39,678 nt of DNA, from IMG/VR virus record IMGVR_UViG_3300009285_011135, positions 1-39,678 of that record; one strand, given 5' to 3'. A program made the position numbers and the translations under genes. The notes beneath the pieces are model-generated. The model was not told the origin of the DNA. It did not search any database and saw nothing but the letters and a program-made list of their open reading frames with translations. Shown piece after piece: positions 3,277 through 31,148 of the stretch; position 1 is the stretch's first letter; the number at the start of each line of letters is the position of its first letter. The stretch comes from a virus.

Positions 3277-3313
3277 ACGGTGAACAGTGAACAGTAAAAC
3301 AGTGAACAGTAAA
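3277..3313. repeat. GTGAACAGT tandem repeat at a gene junction
   Basis: Four degenerate copies of GTGAACAGT/GTGAACGGT fill the gap between the replication-like gene and the excisionase-like gene. One copy supplies the GTG at 3287 and another a GTG at 3302. The same repeat recurs at 4067-4089, 18159-18212, 27739-27769 and 29589-29680. Confidence 0.75.
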
Positions 3314-3698: not shown

Positions 3699-4082
3699 AT
3701 GGAACCGAACGAACTGCGCCGTAACCATACTGACCGATATCAGTCCGTGAGTGCTGCGCTCGCCGAGTCCGAGCGGCAGGTCGACCGGTTGGCGACCGCG
3801 GTCGAGACGCTCCGGGCCGAGATCGGACAGATGCGGCTCCGGTGTGACCGCCAAACCGTGTGTATCGAGGAGCAATCAAACGTCCTGCGGGAGTGCCATG
3901 GGAATTACGCCGCGGTTCATCGGGCGCTGGTTCGCCGGCATCACTGCGATGTCTGCGGCGGCAGCGGGATGAAAATCTCCATCCTGGCTGGCGAGGAGGC
4001 GGCGGACCTGTGCGATTGCTGGAATGAGGCCGAGAGCGCGATCGAGACGCTGCCGCCGGGCGAAGTGAACAGTGAAGAGTGA
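3699..4082 (+). CDS. Coiled-coil protein with CxxC zinc motif
   Basis: A 127-residue protein with AGGAGG five bases before the ATG. Residues about 15-65 (SAALAESERQVDRLATAVET and following) have heptad-type spacing of hydrophobic residues, indicating a coiled coil. Near residue 83, CDVCGGSGMK is followed about 20 residues later by LCDCW, giving two Cys-x-(x)-Cys pairs like a DnaJ-type or rubredoxin-like zinc site. The C-terminus GEVNSEE is encoded by the start of a GTGAACAGT repeat array. Function unknown; a DNA- or protein-binding accessory role is possible. Confidence 0.55.
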   Translation: MEPNELRRNHTDRYQSVSAALAESERQVDRLATAVETLRAEIGQMRLRCDRQTVCIEEQSNVLRECHGNYAAVHRALVRRHHCDVCGGSGMKISILAGEEAADLCDCWNEAESAIETLPPGEVNSEE

Positions 4083-4089
4083 ACAGTAA
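4067..4089. repeat. GTGAACAGT repeat between two early genes
   Basis: GTGAACAGT GAAGA GTGAACAGT spans the last codons of the coiled-coil gene and the gap before the DUF488 gene. The downstream ATG (4094) has no other ribosome-binding site. Confidence 0.65.
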
Positions 4090-9575: not shown

Positions 9576-9616
9576 GCGAGTCTGATCGGTCAGATCGGTC
9601 TGACCGGTCTGATTTG
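9576..9616. repeat. Octamer repeat array at the convergent junction
   Basis: Five to six copies of TCGGTCTGA/TCGGTCAGA-type units between the ends of the early and late operons. TCAGA-TCGG-TCTGA can fold as a short hairpin in either direction. It also encodes the C-terminal residues QIRPVRPI of the small minus-strand gene. Confidence 0.7.
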
Positions 9617-9808
9617 CCTGGCTATCGGGCACAACATCCGCAGGTGCAGGCGCTCGGCGCCCTGAAGGCGACCGTTCAGCGCACTGCGAACGTCCAGCAC
9701 TGCGGTTTCGTATTCCAGGATGGCGCGTTTCTCTTTCACTTCTGCGGCCTCGGCACTGCGGCGCGCGCGTGCCAGGCGCTTACTCGGCGAGGATTCTGGC
9801 GATTGCAT
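9590..9808 (-). CDS. Small coiled-coil protein, last late gene
   Basis: A 72-residue protein with a strong AAAGGAGG seven bases before the ATG at 9806-9808. Residues about 8-50 (SKRLARARRSAEAAEVKEKR, AILEYETAVLD) are charged and helical, probably a coiled coil. The end, ARQIRPVRPI, comes from the octamer repeat at the operon junction. It overlaps the preceding membrane-protein gene by 29 bases. Small overlapping genes at the end of late operons are often lysis or spanin-type, but no lipobox or signal is seen here, so no function is assigned. Confidence 0.6.
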   Translation of the reverse strand: MQSPESSPSKRLARARRSAEAAEVKEKRAILEYETAVLDVRSALNGRLQGAERLHLRMLCPIARQIRPVRPI

Positions 9809-10722: not shown

Positions 10723-12927
10723 CTACAGCAGGCCCAGCACGTCCGCCCTCATCGTGTTTATTTGTTCCGCCAGGTTCTCGCCGCTGTGGATGCCCATCCG
10801 GTCCCAGACCTTCAAAGCGAAGCCGACGGGATCGAGTTCGACGTACCCAGTCTCGACCGTGACTGAGCCCCCGTCCTTCTCGCTCCCGAAATCCCAGACC
10901 ACGCGGGACACGAGGGCATTCACATCCTGGAGGTGATGAGCCTCCATAAACTGAGTGACGATTTCGCCCGGCTCGGCGATGCGGATCAGGCGGCGGTAGC
11001 GGAAAACGATCTTCTCGGCCACGGTCCCGTACCAGCGCTCGGCCAGGGCGGCGACGGCCTGGAGCTGCGGGATATCGTTCCGAAGCTCGACGTAGGCATC
11101 CGGCGACCGCAGCACGTCCGTACCGTCATCCTCGATGCCGACGACCGTGTCGGGCATCAGGATATCCAGCCGGGCATCCTGGACGTGGATTATCTTCTCG
11201 CGGTCGAGCCCGGCCACCTGGTCGGCCGAGATGCGGCGTGAGACCTGCACCGGCTGATCGATCTCCATGGTGGCCGTCAACATCAGCGTCGAGTAGTTCA
11301 GGAGGAGATCGAGCTCGATTTCCTGGGCGGTCGGCGCCGCCATGTGGTCCATCGCCGGCACGTGCTGCGGTTGGAATCGGAGGCGCATCCCAATGTCCTT
11401 CGAATCAGGCGCCAAACCCGCTCCGGAAAACCGGCGGTTCCAGCCCCCGGCCCGCGTGGCGTCGAAATAGAGCTGGGTATCGGCCGTGTCCTGGATGATG
11501 GCTAGCGGGGGCCTGAAATCGGGGACAGTGCTCTGAAGCGAGGCATCGACGGGACTGATCGCCAGGTATTCCCACCCGTAGCGCAGCGGGATTCGGGGCA
11601 TGAACCGCTTTTCGTGAAGCCAGAGCGGCGAGGTGAGGTCAGTCCGGATCGTGCCGTCCGGTTCGATGGCCACGTTCACGGCATGGGCCGTGCCCACGTC
11701 CTCGCCGTTTTTCAGCGTCCCATCCCAATCGGGGTTGACCACGTGGAGGACGTACACGTCCGCATAGTCTGGGGACTCCGGTTTGAGGCCCTGATCGACC
11801 TGCGCGTCGTATGCGTTTTCCGCGGCGACGGTCCAGCCCTCGGTCAGCGATTGCTCCGCGTAGCTCCATGTGCCGGTGACGGTGACGCGGCTGCCCACGA
11901 TGCGGACGTAGTTGTACGCGGCCCGGATGCTCTCGATGATGCGGGGGTCGTCCGCAAACGGGTCGTCGAAGGCCGAGAGGTCCGCGGTATTCCGGTTCCC
12001 GACGATAGTCGTTTCCGGAGTCAGGACTAGATCCGTGGCGAACGTTGTGCCCACCCGAATCTCGATCTCGTCCGTATCCTCGTTGTACACACATCGCCAC
12101 CAGTGGCCGTGCGCCCGGGAGATGAGCGAGTTTAGCACGTCGCGGCAATTCCACCGGGAGAAATCGGAGACCGACTTCTGCAGGTCCAAACCATCTGTAT
12201 ACCCGGTGATGGCGAACGTAATGCCCGAGGCCGGAAACACCCAGTCGTTCAGGTACCGAATCAGATACTCGATGTAATCCAGGTGCGTCCAGACGTCCCC
12301 ATCACCGGAGTAGATATAGGAATCCCCGATCTTGGCATCGCTCCTGTTTCCGAGGAGAGTGCCGTCCCTGTCCGAGCGCCGGTTCATGCCGGGCACGTGA
12401 TCGACGAGGGTGGCGACTCCGGCGATATCCACGTAGGCCGATTCGATGGAGAAGTCCAGCAGCGCCTCGAGACCTTGCGCTGGGGGCAGTCGCACTCCGA
12501 CGTTCCGGCCCCCCGCATCCTGGCCGTGGTAGGTCGTCTCCTGCTGTTCGATGCGGCCCACAAATCGAATCATCTCTTCGGTTTCGGTCTCATCGTCCTC
12601 GTCCGAGGGCACCGCGGTGGATTCAATGACCTGGGCGATCTTGATGAACGTGCCGAGGTAATTGGCCGGCCGGAGATGCTCTGGCTCAGCGTCCCATGGC
12701 CGGCGCACGTAACCGAAACCGGCAGGCTCGGGCAGCAGCCGGATCTGAGCCTGGGGCATGGCGGGCTGGACGGTCTGGTCGAACGACGCCCAAGTCAGGT
12801 CAGGATCGATCGCCCAATCGTCCTCCCAGGAATCCCGGGTGTAGACGAGCCACGTGCCCCTGGCCGTGGAGAACCAGGCGGCGCTGGAGGTTTCGGGAAC
12901 AGGAACATCGACGACGGCTTCGGACAC
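10723..12927 (-). CDS. Large tail protein (baseplate/hub-like)
   Basis: A 734-residue protein from the GTG at 12925-12927, with AAAGGAG about nine bases upstream. The N-terminus has beta-rich segments, IRFVGRIEQQE and YHGQDAGGRNVGVRLPPA, resembling the domain that in tail-hub (gp27-like) proteins sets up ring-like packing; the middle has DVLNSLISRAHGHWWRCVYN, and later beta-strand repeats and RRISADQVAGLDREKIIHV. No lytic enzyme domain is visible. The last large late gene in transcription order, separated from the other tail genes by the 12800-18158 enzyme cassette. The hub assignment is by size and position, not a proven family. Confidence 0.55.
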   Translation of the reverse strand: MSEAVVDVPVPETSSAAWFSTARGTWLVYTRDSWEDDWAIDPDLTWASFDQTVQPAMPQAQIRLLPEPAGFGYVRRPWDAEPEHLRPANYLGTFIKIAQVIESTAVPSDEDDETETEEMIRFVGRIEQQETTYHGQDAGGRNVGVRLPPAQGLEALLDFSIESAYVDIAGVATLVDHVPGMNRRSDRDGTLLGNRSDAKIGDSYIYSGDGDVWTHLDYIEYLIRYLNDWVFPASGITFAITGYTDGLDLQKSVSDFSRWNCRDVLNSLISRAHGHWWRCVYNEDTDEIEIRVGTTFATDLVLTPETTIVGNRNTADLSAFDDPFADDPRIIESIRAAYNYVRIVGSRVTVTGTWSYAEQSLTEGWTVAAENAYDAQVDQGLKPESPDYADVYVLHVVNPDWDGTLKNGEDVGTAHAVNVAIEPDGTIRTDLTSPLWLHEKRFMPRIPLRYGWEYLAISPVDASLQSTVPDFRPPLAIIQDTADTQLYFDATRAGGWNRRFSGAGLAPDSKDIGMRLRFQPQHVPAMDHMAAPTAQEIELDLLLNYSTLMLTATMEIDQPVQVSRRISADQVAGLDREKIIHVQDARLDILMPDTVVGIEDDGTDVLRSPDAYVELRNDIPQLQAVAALAERWYGTVAEKIVFRYRRLIRIAEPGEIVTQFMEAHHLQDVNALVSRVVWDFGSEKDGGSVTVETGYVELDPVGFALKVWDRMGIHSGENLAEQINTMRADVLGLL

Positions 12928-13693
12928 TGTTTACTTCTCCTTTCAGTCTCGAATCGAGTTCGCTCATCCTCGGGGTGAAAAACGAATGGTAAATCGGATC
13001 GGACTGGTAACGTTGCCAGCGGTCATTCACTTTCATTTCGCTGGCGCGGCCATCGAACGTCAGATTGTCCATCGAATCTCCCACTGCGTTCGGGCCGTAA
13101 CGGGAGACGTCCTGGCGGCCGGCATCGCTGAATTCCAGCCCCAGTAGATTCGCGATTGAGCGGCGATATTCCACGGACGCGGCCCACTGGTCGAAATAGA
13201 TCACCACCTTGTTAGGGCACCAGGGCGCCGCGGAAAGCGCCTCCTCCGCGTGATTGATCCAACGGGGCACGAGCGAGTGGATCAGTTTCCGGCTCGGCAC
13301 CGTCTGGCACCCGTAGAACCAGCGCATGTAGGAGGCCAGCCAATTGCCGGCGCTCCGGACGAGGAGGATATTGTAGCGCTCCCGGCTCGCTCCGACGTGC
13401 TCATCCCGGAGCGCCTCCATCTCCTCCGACCAGACGTCTTGAACCCATTGGTTCTCGTAGTTGTACGTCAAGCAGTCTTTCCGGCTGAGGATGCCGGCCA
13501 AATTGGTTGCGGCCTCGCAGCCCGTCCAGGTCGAGTCGCCGCCGCAGGTGGCGAACGGATTCCCCGCGGGATAGCAGGAGTTCAGGTGCACGTGCACAGT
13601 GCCAGGGCACTGCGCAGCAATCCAGTGCAGGATTGCGTGCGACCCGGACCGCCGCATGGCGAGCAGCTTGAATTCCCTCTCATTGATCCACAA
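12800..13693 (-). CDS. Sulfotransferase-like protein
   Basis: A 297-residue open frame. It begins with a TTG at 13691-13693 (AGGGA about nine bases upstream); an ATG at 13657 would remove part of the first strand. The PAPS 5'-phosphosulfate loop is seen as LAMRRSGSHAILHWI (Arg14-Arg15-Ser-Gly-Ser-His), and the 3'-phosphate motif as LLVRSAGNWLASYMRWFYG (Arg113, Ser121). These are the two PAPS-binding boxes of the cytosolic/carbohydrate sulfotransferase superfamily. The last 50 or so residues are Arg- and Cys-rich and overlap the next tail gene by 128 bases in another frame, so the functional protein may end earlier. Probably sulfates a sugar built by its neighbours. Confidence 0.75.
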   Translation of the reverse strand: MWINEREFKLLAMRRSGSHAILHWIAAQCPGTVHVHLNSCYPAGNPFATCGGDSTWTGCEAATNLAGILSRKDCLTYNYENQWVQDVWSEEMEALRDEHVGASRERYNILLVRSAGNWLASYMRWFYGCQTVPSRKLIHSLVPRWINHAEEALSAAPWCPNKVVIYFDQWAASVEYRRSIANLLGLEFSDAGRQDVSRYGPNAVGDSMDNLTFDGRASEMKVNDRWQRYQSDPIYHSFFTPRMSELDSRLKGEVNSVRSRRRCSCSRNLQRRLVLHGQGHVARLHPGFLGGRLGDRS

Positions 13694-14813
13694 TGTCGGT
13701 TTTCCCTTGCGTCATGGCGTCCTCGCGTCCCAGCGTTACGTATTCCTCCATTTGCCAGCTCCTGCCGAGGAGTTCCAACTTCTCAGTTAGTGGCAGGCCT
13801 TCGAGGTCTGCCGCCAGTAGCGGGAGGTTCCTTCCCAGTTTTTTGCCGGGCAGCCCGATGCCGATGGGGGCGTGCCGGCGCCGGGCCGCCTTCCAGTCCC
13901 ATGCTGGCTGGCCATCCACGGCCCCGAAGACCCACCATCCCAGCCAGATTTTCCCGCAGCCCCGGCACACGTGCCATGGCCAGCCGTCCGCATCCACCTG
14001 GGTCTCGATGCGCCCGGCCTGGCGCAGTGCCTCAACTGCCGCGTACTGATTCTGGTAGTTCCCCAACCACTGCGGCATGCAACATTGTCGGTGGTTTTCG
14101 TTCGGTGGGACGTCGGGTGCGACTTTGGAATAGCCGACGCGCTGCACCTTCTCGTCATCGTGCCATTCGCGGTAGAGGATGTTCCGCACCACACGGCACT
14201 GGATGCGAGCCGTGACCATGCGTACGCCGAGGTCCACGTCGATGAAATGATAGCTCGATCCCAACACCTCGTTGATGCCGCCGAGCGCGATGAACCGCTT
14301 TCGCTCGATAACCCAGTTCCCGTAAATGGTGAGAGGACAGGTTCGCTCATCTGACCAGTTGGCCTCGCAGGTCGGGAGCGCCATCGGGTTGCCGGCTCGG
14401 GGGATGATGTCCGAGTGGCCGGTGGTCCCCAGGACCTCCCAGCCGCAATCGATCACGCGGTCAGGCCAGGTCTGGGTGCAATAATCGATCACGTCCAGAT
14501 AGCACGGTGCGGCAAATCGCCAGTCGAGGAACATGGCCACGTGGCTGCCACGAGCCAGCAGCGCCGCCTGATTCCACGCGGCGTAATCCAGGTCCCGAGG
14601 CACTGAGACATCAGGGACGTAGGGGACGTGGAGGAGATCGTAGCGCAGTTTGGGCCGGAGCGCCTCGACGTCCTCGCGGCGTTTCTGGTAGTGAGAATCG
14701 ACGATGACGACCTGGAAGTCGAACCGGTTCTGGCAGTTCAAGTTGAGCAACTGCGCCCGCATCAGGGCGTTGCCGGGCAGGATATAGGAGGACGGCCACA
14801 GGAGTGAAATCAT
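13680..14813 (-). CDS. Glycosyltransferase (family 2-like)
   Basis: A 377-residue protein from the ATG at 14811-14813, which overlaps the stop of the upstream methyltransferase (ATGA). GT-A layout: MISLLWPSSYIL, then FQVVIVDSHY, YAAWNQAALLARGSHVAMFL followed by DWRF (a DxD-like site), DCGWEVLGTTGH, and GGINEVLGSSYHFIDVDLGV, the typical acceptor-loop with Glu and Asp-x-Asp. HVCRGCGKIWLGWW near residue 290 holds a CxxC pair. The C-terminal TLGREDAMTQGKTD is encoded by a GCAAGGACGC-type repeat (13706-13736). It adds a sugar, donor unknown, and it is next to a sulfotransferase and methyltransferases. Confidence 0.72.
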   Translation of the reverse strand: MISLLWPSSYILPGNALMRAQLLNLNCQNRFDFQVVIVDSHYQKRREDVEALRPKLRYDLLHVPYVPDVSVPRDLDYAAWNQAALLARGSHVAMFLDWRFAAPCYLDVIDYCTQTWPDRVIDCGWEVLGTTGHSDIIPRAGNPMALPTCEANWSDERTCPLTIYGNWVIERKRFIALGGINEVLGSSYHFIDVDLGVRMVTARIQCRVVRNILYREWHDDEKVQRVGYSKVAPDVPPNENHRQCCMPQWLGNYQNQYAAVEALRQAGRIETQVDADGWPWHVCRGCGKIWLGWWVFGAVDGQPAWDWKAARRRHAPIGIGLPGKKLGRNLPLLAADLEGLPLTEKLELLGRSWQMEEYVTLGREDAMTQGKTDIVDQ

Positions 14814-15631
14814 GACGGAAGCTCCGGGCAAAACAGCAGACGATCCCATCGCGCCGGGTCGTATTCGAGCAATTCAACGTACACGGATCCGCCAGGTCTA
14901 CCTGCGCCGCTGCGGCAGGCAGGCATCCCGAGATATTTGGAAAAGAGAGCCAGCGCTTCTGTTTCCGACCGCGCGGCTCCGATGTGGGAGAACCTATCCC
15001 AATTCGGTTGCTGTTCGACCCCGCGGAACTGTTGCAGGGGCGCGAGGGGCCAGCGGACGCGCCACGAGCCGGCCACGTTGAGGCGTTGCCACGGCCAGCG
15101 GAAGAACTCCTGGATGGCCCGCTTCACGCCGGGCATGGCGGAGTCGTGTCCCGCGAAAATATGGCCCGGGTCGACCTTCGAGGCCCAAGCGGCGAGGTCG
15201 GCTGCCACGGCATCATACGTGTGATCGCCGTCGATGAAGACGCCATCGAGACTCGCGTCATCGAAGAGCTTGGCAGCCACCACGGAATTCATCCGCATCG
15301 GCAGAATCTTCTTTTCGAATCCGGCCTCCCGGACGTTGCGCATGAACACCTCGAACGGATCGATCCCCTGGGACCGCAACAAATTGAACTGGGTATCGAC
15401 CTGGGTATCGTTTCCTGAGCCGGCCCAGTTATCCACCGCATAGATTCTCGTCTTCTTGCCGAGGAGCTTGAGCCGTTCCGCGAGATAGATGATCGAGCGG
15501 CCGTAGAGTACTCCCACCTCGACGATGCTGCCATTGTTGCCGGCCTCCTCGGCCATCTGGTCGTAGATGCTCTCCCAGTTGAACCAGCCTGGGATTTTGA
15601 GGTAGAGACTGGGCTGTTCATCGAATTTCAT
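14810..15631 (-). CDS. Class I SAM-dependent methyltransferase
   Basis: A 273-residue protein from the ATG at 15629-15631, with GGAGG about eight bases upstream; the reading frame stays open further up but without conservation. SAM motif I is SIVEVGVLYGRSIIYLAERL, then TRIYAVDNWAGSG (acidic end of the second strand) and GVFIDGDHTYDAVAADLAAW, the Methyltransf_24-type motif, and HIFAGHDSAMPGVKRAI. Such enzymes O-methylate sugars or small molecules. The segment PACRSGAGRPGG near residue 245 is encoded by a CCTGCC...GGCAGG repeat inserted in frame. Overlaps both flanking genes by a few bases. Confidence 0.8.
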   Translation of the reverse strand: MKFDEQPSLYLKIPGWFNWESIYDQMAEEAGNNGSIVEVGVLYGRSIIYLAERLKLLGKKTRIYAVDNWAGSGNDTQVDTQFNLLRSQGIDPFEVFMRNVREAGFEKKILPMRMNSVVAAKLFDDASLDGVFIDGDHTYDAVAADLAAWASKVDPGHIFAGHDSAMPGVKRAIQEFFRWPWQRLNVAGSWRVRWPLAPLQQFRGVEQQPNWDRFSHIGAARSETEALALFSKYLGMPACRSGAGRPGGSVYVELLEYDPARWDRLLFCPELPS

Positions 15632-18158
15632 CGAGGCGCCTCCGGAGGAAAATCTGGAACGCGTACGGGTCGAGGTCGATGATCTGCCACCCCTGGTTCT
15701 GGTAGATGAACTGGTCCACTGCGAGTTTAGCGCCCGGGCACTCCGGCCGGCCGTAGTCGTCGATGGCAATGATGCCGCCGGGGGACATGCGGGGAGCGAA
15801 GTAGGCGAGTTCGTGGCGGATCGTCTCCTCGGTATCGGTATCGAGGACGGCGAACGAGTAAGCACGCTCCTCGGTGGTCCCGGGCTTGATGGTCTCGAAT
15901 ACATCGCCCTGGACGGGCACGATGGGGAGGCGGCTGGCGTAGGACTGCAGGTCTGCGAGGGCGTTGTAAGGTGGCCGATATTTGCCGGCCTTGGTGGCGG
16001 CGCCCGGCGTCGGATCATCCTTGGCGAATCCACTGAACGTGTCGAAGGCCCAGACCTTTTTGGGCTGACCGTTGACCAGCGTGGCCATGCGGAGCGCGGT
16101 CCCGCCCAGATAGCAGCCCACCTCGGCCACGTCCCCGGGGATTTTCATGGTTTCGCGGAAGCGGCGTACCAGGAACGGCATCCAGGCATTGGCTGGCACG
16201 TGCTCGATATCGATCGGGAATTCAGGATCAGACGGATTAGCCGGATCGGTCGGATTTGTCGGCGAAATCCACCGCCGCCGCCGCATGTCCTCAATGATGC
16301 TCGCCGCGGTACAGCGCCCATAAACGAGCGGGATGTAACTCTCACGCTCGTAGACGTATGGTGGCATCATATTTCGCTTCATCCGCTCCGAGAACGAGAC
16401 CAGACGCCTCGGGTGGATCGAATCGCCATAGGCGCGCTGCCACATGACGGCAGGGACTCCGAGCCAGCACGAGAAGATGCTGATCCCGGCGGGGTAGCCG
16501 ATGATCGCCTTGGCCGCCTGGCAGACCGCGAATGCCTCGTGAACGGTCGTCGTGCCGACCAGGTTTATCACACGGCTCTCGAATGATGATAGGCGATCTA
16601 TGAGCCGGCCGGCGTACGTCATGTCCTGATCCCAGTTGGCGCCGACCAGAATCACGTTCAGACCGTACTCGTGGACCAGGCTGCGGGCAAGGAGGACCCA
16701 ATCGTCGATGCGCCAGTAGCTCCCGCGGTTTTGGCCCTCGCCCTCCATGCCCATGTTCCCGGCGTCGGGGCCGGGATAGAACACCACGTAGGGCGTTTGG
16801 TTCCGCATACTCTCCCGCAGTTTTTCGCCCGACGGGCCGAGCTTCCAGCGCTGTGCGATATCCCAGTCGGTCGGGATATCCGGCAGCCATTCATCGAGGG
16901 TTTGGCCGCGCTCCAGAGCTCCGTTGGCACAGAGCCAGTAGTCATAGCCGAGGACGTTCCGACCGGAGTCCACGTAATTGTACGAGCCATCCTCGTTCAC
17001 TTGAGGCTCGTCCGGCCGCGTGATTTGCATCCGTCCGAAGCGGACTTCATCCACGAAATCGAAGGCCTCGAGAAATTCCTGAGACCGATTCATCGCTCCG
17101 CAATCCTGGACTACGACCACGATTTTGGCATTGGGATACTGTGCGCGGATCGCGGGCACTTTCACCATCGACCAGAGCGAATCGCCGATGCCTGGCGGAA
17201 CCGCGATGGTGACTGTGGCCGGCGGGATGGCCCTGGATCGGTCTGATCCGTCTGATCGGTCCGATCGGGCTGATTGGGCTGGCAACGTTACTGGCCTCAG
17301 CGACTGCGCCTTCAGCGCGGTATAGCGCCCCAAGCCCATGCGCGGATCGGTCAGGATCGAATCCGGGTAGTGCCCGCCGTAAACGCACTGGGTCGGGATG
17401 CGGAGCGCGATCCCGAGCATCTGGGCGTAACAGGGCGGAGTGAGGATAGCATCCGCAGCCGCATATAGCCCGAGCAACTCCTCGATGCCCATCTCGCCCC
17501 GCTCCGGCACACTGATGCGCTGGTCCGCGAGCCGTTCGACCTCATCAAAGCCCGGGGCCAGCGTCTCGATCTCCGGTTCCTCCCGGCTGAACATGATGAG
17601 CGTGTAGCCCTCGTCCGCCAGCGCTTTGGCTGCCACCGCGTATTTGGACGGCTCCGGGAGCCGATCAGGTATCTCTGCCCCCATCAGAATCGTGGGGAGT
17701 TGGATTACCGCATACGTGCGCTCGGTGTTTCTTTTGAACCAGGTATGCCCCGCGGCCCTCAGGTACGGCGGCAGCAGGAGTCCGAAATCCGTCACCGGAA
17801 ACGGTGCGCCAAAGAGTTTTTCCCAGTGCCTGACCAGCCGCCCGTAAAACGATTCATTGGGATCGCCCAAGGCCCTGGGCTTCAGATCGATGATCGTCGT
17901 TTCCCCGTTAATGGGCCGCGGCGAGAAATAGAGTTGCGGGCACTGCTCGACGTTCCGCTCCGCGAGCGGCAGACCATGGCCCGCCGGAATGAGGTACCGC
18001 AGCGCAGGCCATCGCCAGAGATGGACCTGCGGATAGCACGTCTCCAGGTAGACCTGCCCCGGCCACTGTTCGGCCGCGCGGCCCGCGAACGGGCTGACCA
18101 GAATGTTATCGCCCAAGCCCTGGAGACAGCGGATGATGAGTGATTTGCGGATAGCCAT
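15618..18158 (-). CDS. Fusion: two GT9 (heptosyltransferase-like) domains plus TylF-like methyltransferase
   Basis: An 846-residue protein from the ATG at 18156-18158; the frame upstream is repeat-derived. Domain 1 (about 1-290): SLIIRCLQGLGDNILVSPFA, then YTLIMFSREEPE and GLYAAADAILTPPCYAQMLG, a GT-B heptosyltransferase-like fold. Domain 2 (about 310-630): VTIAVPPGIGDSLWSMVKVP, YVVFYPGPDAGN, NLVGTTTVHEAFAVCQAAKA and IIGYPAGISIFSCWLGVPAV, the same fold again. Domain 3 (about 650-846): GDVAEVGCYLGGTALRMATL, VWAFDTFSGFAKD and AVLDTDTEETIRHELAYF with IIAIDDYG, a TylF/macrocin O-methyltransferase-like enzyme. The linkers ARSDRSDGSDRSR (293-308) and PTNPTDPANPSDP (633-645) come from one octamer repeat family. 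It may build and methylate a glycan. Confidence 0.85.
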   Translation of the reverse strand: MAIRKSLIIRCLQGLGDNILVSPFAGRAAEQWPGQVYLETCYPQVHLWRWPALRYLIPAGHGLPLAERNVEQCPQLYFSPRPINGETTIIDLKPRALGDPNESFYGRLVRHWEKLFGAPFPVTDFGLLLPPYLRAAGHTWFKRNTERTYAVIQLPTILMGAEIPDRLPEPSKYAVAAKALADEGYTLIMFSREEPEIETLAPGFDEVERLADQRISVPERGEMGIEELLGLYAAADAILTPPCYAQMLGIALRIPTQCVYGGHYPDSILTDPRMGLGRYTALKAQSLRPVTLPAQSARSDRSDGSDRSRAIPPATVTIAVPPGIGDSLWSMVKVPAIRAQYPNAKIVVVVQDCGAMNRSQEFLEAFDFVDEVRFGRMQITRPDEPQVNEDGSYNYVDSGRNVLGYDYWLCANGALERGQTLDEWLPDIPTDWDIAQRWKLGPSGEKLRESMRNQTPYVVFYPGPDAGNMGMEGEGQNRGSYWRIDDWVLLARSLVHEYGLNVILVGANWDQDMTYAGRLIDRLSSFESRVINLVGTTTVHEAFAVCQAAKAIIGYPAGISIFSCWLGVPAVMWQRAYGDSIHPRRLVSFSERMKRNMMPPYVYERESYIPLVYGRCTAASIIEDMRRRRWISPTNPTDPANPSDPEFPIDIEHVPANAWMPFLVRRFRETMKIPGDVAEVGCYLGGTALRMATLVNGQPKKVWAFDTFSGFAKDDPTPGAATKAGKYRPPYNALADLQSYASRLPIVPVQGDVFETIKPGTTEERAYSFAVLDTDTEETIRHELAYFAPRMSPGGIIAIDDYGRPECPGAKLAVDQFIYQNQGWQIIDLDPYAFQIFLRRRLDEIR
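16226..16262. repeat. Octamer repeat encoding the second linker of the GT9-GT9-methyltransferase fusion
   Basis: GATCAGACGGATTAGCCGGA-type units translated on the minus strand as PTNPTDPANPSDP. Confidence 0.7.
17236..17282. repeat. Octamer repeat encoding the first linker of the fusion
   Basis: Six or so units of GATCGGTCT/GATCCGTCT/GATCGGTCC type, translated as ARSDRSDGSDRSR. The unit is the same family as in the second linker but read in a different register. Confidence 0.75.
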
Positions 18159-18212
18159 GGTGAAGAGTGAACAGTGAAGAGTGAATCCGCCTGCGGCGGA
18201 AACAGTGAACAG
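18159..18212. repeat. GTGAACAGT array with CCGCC hairpin forming a gene leader
   Basis: On the coding (minus) strand: CTGTTCACTG, then the perfect TCCGCC-GCA-GGCGGA hairpin, then TTCACTCTTCACTGTTCACT units, directly abutting the ATG of the fusion gene. No purine-rich ribosome-binding site is visible. A near-identical leader precedes the ATG at 29588. Confidence 0.8.
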
Positions 18213-18213
18213 A

Positions 18214-19302
18214 TCAGACGGTATTGATGGTTGCCACGTTTGCGATCGGGACTGCGTTGATGGCTGCGATGTCCGCTGCGGGGACCCCGCAGACACTTGC
18301 GAAATTCCCCGAATAGAAGTTCCACAGCGTGTTGTTGCCTGAATCCGTGGATTCCGTCGCCGTGAATGGTGCGCTCGCCCCCGCCGCAGTGGAGTCCATC
18401 ACGTCCACGTCCGTGATGGCAATCGCACCATCAGAGCTGAGCGTCCAGGCAACCCCGTCCGTTGTGCTCCGGAGGAGGTGCTGGCCCGAGGTCGCCGAAG
18501 TCGTAATAGGTCCGACGCTTCTCGTTATTACTCCCTCGCCGAATTTAATCGTCTTGGCCGCGCCCGAAATGGTGAGAGATGCGAACGTTGGCGCATCCGC
18601 GATGGTCAGGAGGTTCCCTGTCCCTGCGCCCTGGATGGTCACTGCGCCGAATTCCTCGCCGTTCGAATCGAACGTCACGGACTGCGAGCTCGCTGACAGG
18701 TAGATGCTGAGGCTCGCGGTCTGGTGATTGAGTGTCCCGGAATCGATATCCGGGGCGGCATTCACGATCTGCCAGGTCCCTGAACCCATGTTCACGGTTC
18801 CGCCATCCAGAAGGAACTGATTGCAGTTCATGACCGAGTGCGTGCCCGCGGAGAACGTGCCCGAGGTGATCCACAGCTTGAACGCGGTCAGGTTGTCGCC
18901 AAGCGTGACGACCGAGGTGACATCGTTCACGCGGAACCGCACGAACCCATTGCCTGACGTTCCCCCGAGGTCGAGGGTCCCGGTCCCGATGATTGCGAGG
19001 GTGCCGCTGCCATCGAAATCAGCAATGGCCGAGCCAAAGGTGATATTCCCATAGACCGTCAAAGTGGAATTCAGGGTGATGAACGTGCTCGCTATGATGC
19101 CAGCATTCCATGACATGGAATCGCACTCTGCCGGTACACCGATCAAGACCTGTTGATTGGTGAGCGAGAATGAATTCGTGCTGAAATAGACGTCATCCGC
19201 CAGTGTGGGCACGGAAGCTCCGGACGGCCCGCCATCGGATTCGCTCCATTTGGTGGTCGAGTTCCAGTTCCCACCGTTTCCGACCCAGTAACGCGCGGCC
19301 AT
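18214..19302 (-). CDS. Beta-helix tail fibre-like protein
   Basis: A 362-residue protein. The start, MAARYWVGNGGNWNSTTKW, with LADDVYFSTN, resembles the leading segment of phage and adhesin beta-solenoid proteins. The body is a run of short strands with Gly-Thr-Leu repeats (FDGSGTLAIIGTGTLDLGGT, FLLDGGTVNMGSGTWQIVN), as in right-handed beta-helices. The C-terminus ADIAAINAVPIANVATINTV is a well-known type of phage-fibre ending. Overall a receptor-binding or glycan-binding tail appendage is likely. It lies directly upstream of the glycan cassette and directly downstream of another fibre gene (one base gap). Confidence 0.7.
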   Translation of the reverse strand: MAARYWVGNGGNWNSTTKWSESDGGPSGASVPTLADDVYFSTNSFSLTNQQVLIGVPAECDSMSWNAGIIASTFITLNSTLTVYGNITFGSAIADFDGSGTLAIIGTGTLDLGGTSGNGFVRFRVNDVTSVVTLGDNLTAFKLWITSGTFSAGTHSVMNCNQFLLDGGTVNMGSGTWQIVNAAPDIDSGTLNHQTASLSIYLSASSQSVTFDSNGEEFGAVTIQGAGTGNLLTIADAPTFASLTISGAAKTIKFGEGVITRSVGPITTSATSGQHLLRSTTDGVAWTLSSDGAIAITDVDVMDSTAAGASAPFTATESTDSGNNTLWNFYSGNFASVCGVPAADIAAINAVPIANVATINTV

Positions 19303-23500: not shown

Positions 23501-24376
23501 TTACGCCTTGGCGGCCAGAGCATCGATGAGCGCGGAATAGTCGGCCTCGGCGATGAACTGCCGCTGATTCTCTAGCTCGGCGGAGACCCGCGATAATGCC
23601 TCTGTTCCGGAGGCCGATGCGATTTTCGCACGGAAATTTTTGACCACGATTCGCGCCCGGCGCTGTTCCGGAGATTCCGCGGCAGGCAGGTTGGTCGGAC
23701 CCGTCGGATCGGTCTGAGGGGTACCGGCGTTGGACGGGGGCACTGCCGGCGGCTTCTGGCGCCGCTGGGTTGGGCCCGGTGCCGCGGTTTGAACGGCATC
23801 TGCATCCTCATCGGCTGCCGCCAGGTTCAGCAGATTGGCGAGCAGCGCCTTCCGCGCGCTCGTGCATGCCTTCGCCGTGGCCTTCTCGCCGCGGTCCTCG
23901 CCGTCGCCAGTCGCCAGAACTTCGATCCACTGGCCGGAGGAGTGCATCAGGCGGCCGACCATCCAGACCCGTGCCCGCCACATCGTTTTCCCCTCGCCAC
24001 TCTCTCGGGAACCCAGATCGAGGTGTCCCGACTGGGTAACGAGAAGCGAGAGTCCATGCGTTGCGAGGGGTCGGCGAACCGTAGCGGTGTGGTCGGAGAG
24101 GGTGGGGTACCGGTAATGGTCGTAGCGGTTCTCGCCAGATTTGGGCATTTCCTGCATGTCCCCTTGAGCGGCGGCCAGAGCCGCGGCGAGCTCCGAAATA
24201 TCCGGAGAGGTCGAGAACGCCGAGCCTCGTGCAATGGGCGTCCCGCCCATTTTGAGTGGAATGGGCATCCGGCCCATTGTGGGTTTCCCATCAATCGGCG
24301 TTCCCGGCGAGACCTCATAATCGTCGATCTCATCGAACATGGTTCGTTCGGTCGGAACTTGGTCATTGTCGCCCAT
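23501..24376 (-). CDS. ERF-family single-strand annealing protein
   Basis: A 291-residue protein from the ATG at 24374-24376, with AAAGGAGA seven bases upstream. The ERF core is clear: ELAAALAAAQGDMQEMPKSG, RYDHYRYPTLSDHTATVRRP, THGLSLLVTQSG, MVGRLMHSSGQWIEVLATG and GEKATAKACTSARKALLANL. ERF proteins anneal complementary single strands in phage recombination. A flexible linker follows, with TDPTGPTNLP encoded by an octamer repeat (23693-23717), then a helical tail. It is unusual to find a recombination gene in the middle of the tail operon, between a tape-measure-side gene and DUF1353; normally it is in the early region. Confidence 0.8.
   Translation of the reverse strand: MGDNDQVPTERTMFDEIDDYEVSPGTPIDGKPTMGRMPIPLKMGGTPIARGSAFSTSPDISELAAALAAAQGDMQEMPKSGENRYDHYRYPTLSDHTATVRRPLATHGLSLLVTQSGHLDLGSRESGEGKTMWRARVWMVGRLMHSSGQWIEVLATGDGEDRGEKATAKACTSARKALLANLLNLAAADEDADAVQTAAPGPTQRRQKPPAVPPSNAGTPQTDPTGPTNLPAAESPEQRRARIVVKNFRAKIASASGTEALSRVSAELENQRQFIAEADYSALIDALAAKA
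23693..23717. repeat. Octamer repeat in the ERF linker
   Basis: GGTCGGACCCGTCGGATCGG, read on the minus strand as TDPTGPT. Same family as in the DUF488 and glycosyltransferase linkers. Confidence 0.65.
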
Positions 24377-24390
24377 AATTTTCTCCTTTG

Positions 24391-24795
24391 TCAGCTTGCG
24401 AACAACCCCGTCCACACGGCCCGTACAACCCACAGGCCGCTCCCGTAGGCGCTGGAGACCTGCCCCTTTAGCTTCGGCGAGCCATCAGGGAAACGGACAT
24501 CGAGCAACTGGAGGTTACTCCAGGTGACATTTCCGGATGTGACCAGACTGGCGAGTGTCCCGGTGTAGGCCGTCAGGAGCTGGGGATACGTCGTCAGGAT
24601 CAGTGTTTTTGCGGCGTCTTCGGTGGCGGCCCGTTCCCACGTCAGTATCTGGAACGGTTCCGCGTGGGCCGCCTGTTGGGTGGCCCAATTGCCGTCGCAA
24701 CCGGCCCGGCGTGCGATGGCCAGATCAGCCTGCAGCGGAGTGGGCGAGAATTGGATGATCGAAAAACTATGGCCGGCGAGCGTTGGCTGGCTCAA
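24391..24795 (-). CDS. Small tail protein, unknown
   Basis: A 134-residue protein whose ATG overlaps the end of the tape-measure gene by four bases. Strand and helix pattern: QPTLAGHSFSIIQFSPTPLQ, TLILTTYPQLLTAYTGTLAS, NVTWSNLQLLDVRFPDGSPK, ending in GSGLWVVRAVWTGLFAS. It has the size and place of a distal-tail or tail-completion protein after the tape measure. No family recognised. Confidence 0.6.
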   Translation of the reverse strand: MSQPTLAGHSFSIIQFSPTPLQADLAIARRAGCDGNWATQQAAHAEPFQILTWERAATEDAAKTLILTTYPQLLTAYTGTLASLVTSGNVTWSNLQLLDVRFPDGSPKLKGQVSSAYGSGLWVVRAVWTGLFAS

Positions 24796-27717: not shown

Positions 27718-27738
27718 CGGGGTAGACGGATAGGAATA

Positions 27739-27769
27739 AACAGTAAACAGTAAACAGTAAACAGTTAGG
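27739..27769. repeat. GTAAACAGT repeats upstream of the chaperone-like gene
   Basis: Four TAAACAGT units fill the gap between the tail-tube stop and the chaperone-like start. On the coding strand ACTGTTTACTGTTTACTGTT precedes TCCTATCCGTCTACCCCG and the ATG. No Shine-Dalgarno is seen. Confidence 0.7.
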
Positions 27770-29588: not shown

Positions 29589-29645
29589 GGTGAACAGTGA
29601 ACAGTGAATCCGCCTGCGGCGGAAACAGTGAACAGTAAACAGTGA
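29589..29645. repeat. Second copy of the GTGAACAGT/CCGCC-hairpin leader
   Basis: On the coding strand: CACTGTTTACTGTTCACTG, TTTCCGCCGCAGGCGGATTC and ACTGTTCACTGTTCACC, then ATG. It matches the leader at 18159-18212 almost unit for unit, including the perfect TCCGCC-GCA-GGCGGA hairpin. Confidence 0.8.
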
Positions 29646-29667
29646 GGCTCTTTACTGTTCACTGTTT
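29623..29667 (-). terminator. 17-bp perfect inverted repeat after the capsid gene
   Basis: AAACAGTGAACAGTAAA (29623-29639) and TTTACTGTTCACTGTTT (29651-29667) pair perfectly with an 11-base loop. It is formed by GTGAACAGT repeats in opposite orientation. No U-run follows; it may act as a processing or attenuation hairpin between capsid and joining genes. Confidence 0.55.
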
Positions 29668-29699
29668 ATTGTTTACTTCTTTCTTTACTAAGTATGGGA

Positions 29700-31113: not shown

Positions 31114-31148
31114 GGTCAGACCGGTCGGACGAGTCCGACCGGTCTGAC
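31114..31148 (-). terminator. Strong intrinsic terminator formed by octamer repeats
   Basis: GTCAGACCGGTCGGAC (31115-31130) and GTCCGACCGGTCTGAC (31133-31148) form a perfect 16-bp stem with a two-base spacer. On the minus strand the stem is followed after two bases by TTTTTT, then a second run of T six bases long further on. This is the strongest terminator-like element in the window, sitting between the decoration and capsid genes. Confidence 0.75.

Follow-up and report, generated by a model that had tools for sequence, protein, structure and literature searches.

Glycans on virions have been measured in only a few phages, most of them actinobacteriophages, in which they change antibody recognition. 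Phage sets of glycosyltransferase and O-methyltransferase genes are already known, as is virion glycosylation itself. Cluster O mycobacteriophages carry three glycosyltransferases and an O-methyltransferase, for which modification of the capsid and tail tube proteins is reported (PMC11600133 citing Freeman et al. 2023). The authors of work on a Rhodococcus phage likewise infer virion modification by such sets (PMC13313380). In the Actinoplanes phage phiAsp2 the genes pas33-pas35, which encode in this order a glycosyltransferase, a glycosyltransferase-methyltransferase fusion and a second glycosyltransferase, lie right after the tail genes. In the Pseudomonas phages D3 (orf12/orf13), PAJU2 (gp11/gp12) and P7869, in Psp6 and in the Enterobacter phage Mulvp2 (gp58/gp59), a GT9-like gene is paired with one for a methyltransferase, and the pair separates the head or head-tail genes from the tail genes. 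Sulfotransferase genes of the Sulfotransfer_3 type are carried by OM43-type marine phages, with a function that is 'unclear' according to the authors (PMC10580990); our targeted searches of the openly licensed literature retrieved no paper on phage sulfation.

The locus described here lies in the genome of an uncultured bacterial virus. The window, i.e. the whole stretch of 39,678 bases that was analysed, is the entire IMG/VR virus record IMGVR_UViG_3300009285_011135. From the terminase downwards its minus strand carries small and large terminase, portal and major head protein genes (PHROG match), beyond which a putative short tape measure gene and then tail genes can be recognised by eye. The plus strand encodes a ParB-like protein, a DUF5131 protein and a replication-initiator-like protein at about 2.5-9.5 kb. 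Inside the tail module, on the same strand as the virion genes, are four intact open reading frames, here called A, B, C and D in the order of transcription. The initial annotation had placed four consecutive minus-strand genes at 12800-18158, and the reading frames are indeed found at these positions. The features of the region are the following.

18214-19302, minus strand: upstream fibre-like tail gene, N-terminal match to a tail-module gene of phage P19250A
15618-18158, minus strand: gene A, GT9-like domain 1, GT9-like domain 2 and TylF-type O-methyltransferase
17236-17280, plus strand: nonamer array encoding the linker between the two GT9-like domains (SARSDRSDGSDRS), found by TRF and pattern scan
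16226-16261, plus strand: nonamer array encoding the linker between GT9 domain 2 and the methyltransferase (NPTDPANPSDP), found by TRF and pattern scan
14810-15631, minus strand: gene B, class I methyltransferase of the Methyltransf_24 / CmcI-RhmsylMT type
13680-14813, minus strand: gene C, putative transferase, 'GT2-like' by eye only
12800-13693, minus strand: gene D, sulfotransferase-like P-loop protein with homology over residues 1-253 (12935-13693)
10723-12927, minus strand: downstream 734-aa tail-module protein, 'hub-like' by eye, with a GTG start and a GGAG ribosome site

Genes A and B overlap by 14 nt (15618-15631), B and C by 4 nt (ATGA, gene C starting at the ATG at 14813) and C and D by 14 nt (13680-13693). 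An overlap by a few bases, as described initially, therefore holds within the cassette but not at its downstream end, where gene D and the next gene share 128 nt (12800-12927). We infer from this layout that A to D are co-expressed late. Neither GC nor GC3 shows a discontinuity across the cassette and both match the rest of the phage, which speaks against the recent chance insertion of foreign DNA that the initial annotation had considered. It is also very unlikely that the four genes are a chance cargo island without a role in the phage. Single-sequence searches of IMG/VR with the whole phage and with A, C, D, the tail gene and the terminase gave no close relatives, and hence none that would show the exact set to be conserved, but the four overlapping frames are intact, their composition fits the phage and the same enzyme families recur in unrelated phages.

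Repeats of a different kind are scattered over the window. Heptamer arrays of the AGTGAAC/AGTAAAC type, mostly intergenic, are present at 3286-3313, 4064-4087, 18160-18185, 27737-27765 and 29590-29677, one of them directly upstream of gene A, and an identical palindrome, TCCGCCTGCGGCGGA, is flanked by heptamer arrays at 18170-18215 and 29600-29640. The combined heptamer and palindrome motif, searched with two patterns, had no match in 84,980 genomes.

Gene A is a three-domain fusion, with GT9-like domain 1 at about residues 1-283, domain 2 at about residues 285-630 and the TylF-type O-methyltransferase at about residues 640-846, and the original proposal of two GT9-like domains and a TylF-like domain is supported. 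Domain 2 matches PF01075 (GT9) with an E value of 1.8e-6 and 27.9 bits against a curated cut-off of 22. The C-terminal domain matches TylF (3e-9, 37.0 bits against a cut-off of 23), Methyltransf_24 (1.8e-6, also above cut-off) and phrog_2675 (1e-8), and its PDB matches are the natural-product and sugar O-methyltransferases MycF (mycinamicin 3''-O-methyltransferase, 2e-7), CalS11 and NovP. A Pfam search with domain 1 was empty, and this domain is assigned through its match to phrog_6804, the family of phage D3 orf12 (2.6e-8), some members of which are annotated as GT9 in public records. Aligned with five D3 orf12-like proteins, domain 1 shares 34 invariant columns, including GLGD in 6 of 6 sequences. 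Both GT9-like domains carry an N-terminal G-x-G-D motif, GLGD in domain 1 and GIGD in domain 2; the aspartate of this motif is the catalytic one known from heptosyltransferases.

The closest relative of domain 2 among the fetched loci is encoded on a viral contig (L034), where separate genes for a domain-1-like protein and a methyltransferase follow it directly, so the three fused domains of gene A occur elsewhere as three adjacent genes. Both linkers of gene A are encoded by nonamer arrays, and a degenerate family of such nonamers (GATCGGTCN-like) is also present at 9584-9619, 23689-23715 and 31118-31144 of the window. The repeats may have helped to fuse formerly separate genes into gene A. 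One of the arrays lies within a gene for an Erf-like single-strand annealing protein (23501-24433, ERF 1.1e-11), which itself is positioned amid virion genes, flanked by putative tape-measure and fibre genes.

The class I methyltransferase proposed for gene B is confirmed by Methyltransf_24 (PF13578, 2e-18, 67.6 bits against a cut-off of 26.3), and RMNT_CmcI (PF04989) also scores above its cut-off (1.4e-7). Of the genes in the fetched loci, the one closest to it encodes a methyltransferase (1.7e-7) and directly follows a gene-D homolog on another contig (L020), so that B and D are associated in an unrelated phage as well, though with their order reversed. Gene C is a different case. It has no match in Pfam (E<10), PHROG, NCBIfam or PDB and no homologs among the phages or plasmids searched. 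Against a small GT2 profile it scored 14.1, no better than shuffled sequences (mean 13.7, max 24.8), in a test that lacks power because the positive controls were weak. The GT2 label, which came from visible motifs with no search behind it, is therefore unsupported. Single-sequence AlphaFold models of genes C and D reached a pLDDT of 33, too low for them to be used.

Gene D had been called a sulfotransferase, a claim that stands on motifs, neighbours and a weak profile match but finds no counterpart in the databases: neither the protein nor its family profile matches Pfam, PHROG or PDB entries, and none of the Pfam sulfotransferase models matched gene D or five of its homologs. Six viral relatives in all came from two profile scans of IMG/VR. 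With tblastn, full-length relatives were also found on plasmids (E values from 1e-17 to 1e-2), the best in Gemmatirosa (1e-17) and further ones in Jannaschia, Paracoccus and other bacteria. P-loop proteins from these three genera and from Ruegeria share 22-31% identity with gene D over its full length as well as the same invariant motifs, and these relatives are cellular and mostly located within glycan or secondary-metabolite clusters. In the 11-member family R15, S16, G17 and H19, R113, N117, A120 and S121, and Y176 and R177 are invariant. In both order and character the motifs RSG-H and R-x-x-x-N-x-x-A-S resemble the phosphosulfate-binding motifs of sulfotransferases, with which they are collinear. 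An hhalign comparison of the family with nine sulfotransferase sequences aligned both motifs and scored 27.9, above 60 of 60 column shuffles (max 18.2), at a probability of only 7% (P 0.005). We call the protein sulfotransferase-like in view of the motifs and the profile score, while noting this low probability.

The surroundings of the family members point in the same direction. In Jannaschia and Paracoccus the homologs belong to exopolysaccharide-type clusters that also contain glycosyltransferases and annotated sulfotransferases. The Gemmatirosa homolog comes after a GT2-like ORF and has a sulfotransferase-like ORF 4 kb off (both by eye), and in Ruegeria and Tritonibacter the homolog adjoins a sulfotransferase within a succinate dehydrogenase operon. 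Among viruses, two T4-like uncultured myovirus contigs carry the homolog directly after the gp23 major capsid gene and before the tail sheath genes (L018, 4377-5195; L019, 2181-2963). In three further contigs the homolog is followed by a GT4 glycosyltransferase and a Sulfotransfer_2 gene (L017), is followed by a nucleotide-sugar epimerase and a double sulfotransferase (L016), or shares an island with an epimerase and methyltransferases (L020). The second of these contigs encodes a viral protein of 741 aa (L016:13656-15881) that has two matches to sulfotransferase domains and, in its C-terminal part, a weak GT9 match (0.0007, below cut-off).

The lack of a Pfam, PHROG or PDB match for protein and family profile, together with the hhalign probability, would also fit another type of P-loop phosphotransferase or a binding protein, in which case the cassette would never sulfate. 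This possibility, which is compatible with a cassette acting on the virion, has somewhat less than even odds. It has to account for two motifs that do not vary among 11 sequences and are collinear with those of true sulfotransferases, for a score that no shuffle reached, and for neighbours that often are true sulfotransferases. We consider it somewhat more likely than not that gene D encodes a real sulfotransferase. A more far-reaching proposal is that gene D founds an unrecognised sulfotransferase family, present in bacteria that produce glycans as well as in several phage lineages, which sulfates the glycans of phage virions, so that the tail or capsid would bear a methylated and sulfated glycan; this is a tentative idea, and on balance a doubtful one. 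The last 44 residues of gene D appear to be a run-on into the next gene, since homology ends near residue 253. In the segment 12800-12931 there is a TAA in a neighbouring frame just before the GTG start of the next gene, and it looks as if the natural end of gene D had been lost through a small shift. Taken together, what had been described as a full glycan-decorating set can be maintained as a glycan-building and O-methylating set in a late tail module, with the GT2 member unsupported and sulfation proposed from motifs and profile.

The genes on both sides had been described as a fibre gene and a hub-like tail gene. The N-terminal 44 aa of the protein encoded at 18214-19302 are 59% identical to a gene product of the tail module of phage P19250A, where the counterpart adjoins host-specificity protein J and a tail-fibre gene. 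On the other side, the protein encoded at 10723-12927, whose start codon and ribosome site sit inside gene D, has no family match in Pfam or PHROG, and 'hub-like' remains a description by eye.

The distribution of the domain-1 family gives information on the role of the cassette. In IMG/VR the family was found at 80 loci, in 14 clusters at 60% identity, with one cluster of D3-like prophages contributing 45 of the 80. A methyltransferase is adjacent in 59 loci. A virion gene on the same strand lies within 6 kb in 72 loci, which taken as mere nearness is weak evidence because phages are compact. That the family is found again and again within the run of structural genes in phages of different hosts, as in D3, PAJU2, P7869, Psp6 and Mulvp2, is stronger evidence. 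Two gene runs (L034:4624-7456 and L028:5405-7462) combine an ORF starting with CIASGPSLT, one or two GT9-like genes and a methyltransferase; by eye, these ORFs resemble proteins of the D3/PAJU2 region annotated as alpha-2,3-sialyltransferase.

Two targets had been proposed, tail or fibre proteins of the virion and the host surface. If the host surface were modified, LPS or exopolysaccharide would be altered late in infection, blocking superinfection or the re-adsorption of progeny. Serotype conversion by phage glycosyltransferases is established, GT9 includes LPS heptosyltransferases (PF01075; TIGR02195 1.7e-7), and the cellular relatives of gene D in exopolysaccharide-type clusters would be in line with such a role. 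Still, all four proteins are without a membrane segment, as none has a 19-residue hydrophobic segment above 1.41, and the cassette has no flippase-like or membrane-embedded glucosyltransferase neighbour. It forms part of the late virion operon and not of a separate conversion module, and the GT9-like family is recurrently located between virion genes. Modification of the host surface, the chief rival reading, is therefore unlikely in our judgement. Serotype conversion of the gtr type was rejected because the cassette has no membrane proteins.

Of the two targets, the virion is the better supported, since the GT9-like family repeatedly occurs together with a methyltransferase in runs of virion genes and the gene-D family is positioned next to a T4-like capsid gene. 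We suggest that the cassette serves late glycosylation and O-methylation of a virion protein, possibly with sulfation, and put the probability of this reading, which derives from gene content and context, at roughly 0.55. The cassette would be a translationally coupled late set of soluble enzymes that act in the cytoplasm while virions are assembled. Nucleotide sugars of the host would serve as donors, from which both GT9-like domains of gene A, perhaps together with gene C, would transfer sugars to at least one virion protein, with the fibre or tail proteins encoded nearby as the most likely targets. The sugars could then be O-methylated by the TylF-type domain of gene A and by gene B, and gene D may sulfate the resulting glycan with PAPS. 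Direct action of GT9 enzymes on protein is known from bacterial autotransporter heptosyltransferases. Operon continuity does not point to the substrate; the adjacent fibre (18214-19302), with its N-terminus matching a P19250A tail-module gene, is the natural first candidate.

A further option is that phage DNA or a small molecule is the modified substrate instead of a glycoprotein or polysaccharide. Phages can glucosylate DNA, and methyltransferase families homologous to those found here are labelled 'DNA methyltransferase' in PHROGs (phrog_2675). The proteins scanned included no base-modification genes, however, and the cassette lies in the tail module, which makes this option highly improbable. 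Modification of DNA was also rejected on the grounds that the methyltransferase domains match sugar and natural-product O-methyltransferases and not DNA methyltransferases.

If virion decoration is indeed the role of the cassette and other GT9-methyltransferase sets in tail and head modules do likewise, glycosylated virions would be far more widespread than the measured cases, and the classical lysogenic Pseudomonas phage D3 would be among their sources. With a sulfotransferase-like family next to capsid genes, sulfation would become part of the chemistry known for phage particles. The initial statement that no described phage system has this exact composition was too strong, because glycosyltransferase and O-methyltransferase sets reported to act on capsid and tail tube exist in mycobacteriophages (PMC11600133 citing Freeman et al. 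2023) and an annotated set exists in phiAsp2, but the exact four-gene set was found nowhere else in the collections searched. We found no description of a gene-D-like family or of a methylated and sulfated virion glycan. What is new is the fusion of three domains through linkers encoded by nonamer repeats, and the association of such a set with a sulfotransferase-like family that Pfam does not cover.

Compared with the known systems, the cassette combines familiar and unfamiliar elements. In the mycobacteriophage sets, of cluster O and others, virion glycans were measured; those sets are non-homologous in composition as far as tested, and no sulfotransferase is described for them. The sulfotransferases of OM43-type phages are recognised by Pfam (PF13469), while gene D belongs to an unnamed family outside Pfam. 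With D3, PAJU2, P7869 and Mulvp2 the cassette shares a domain-1 homolog followed by a methyltransferase within the virion genes, but the D3-type pair consists of separate small genes, with a single GT9-like protein and a methyltransferase of the Methyltransf_23 type, and is without a gene-C or gene-D homolog. In phiAsp2 the glycosyltransferases are of other types, there is no sulfotransferase-like gene and the host group is different. Yet phiAsp2 has, like the cassette, glycosyltransferase and methyltransferase genes next to its tail genes, and its Pas34, a fusion of a glycosyltransferase with a Methyltransf_24 domain, is the closest named relative of both methyltransferase domains found here.
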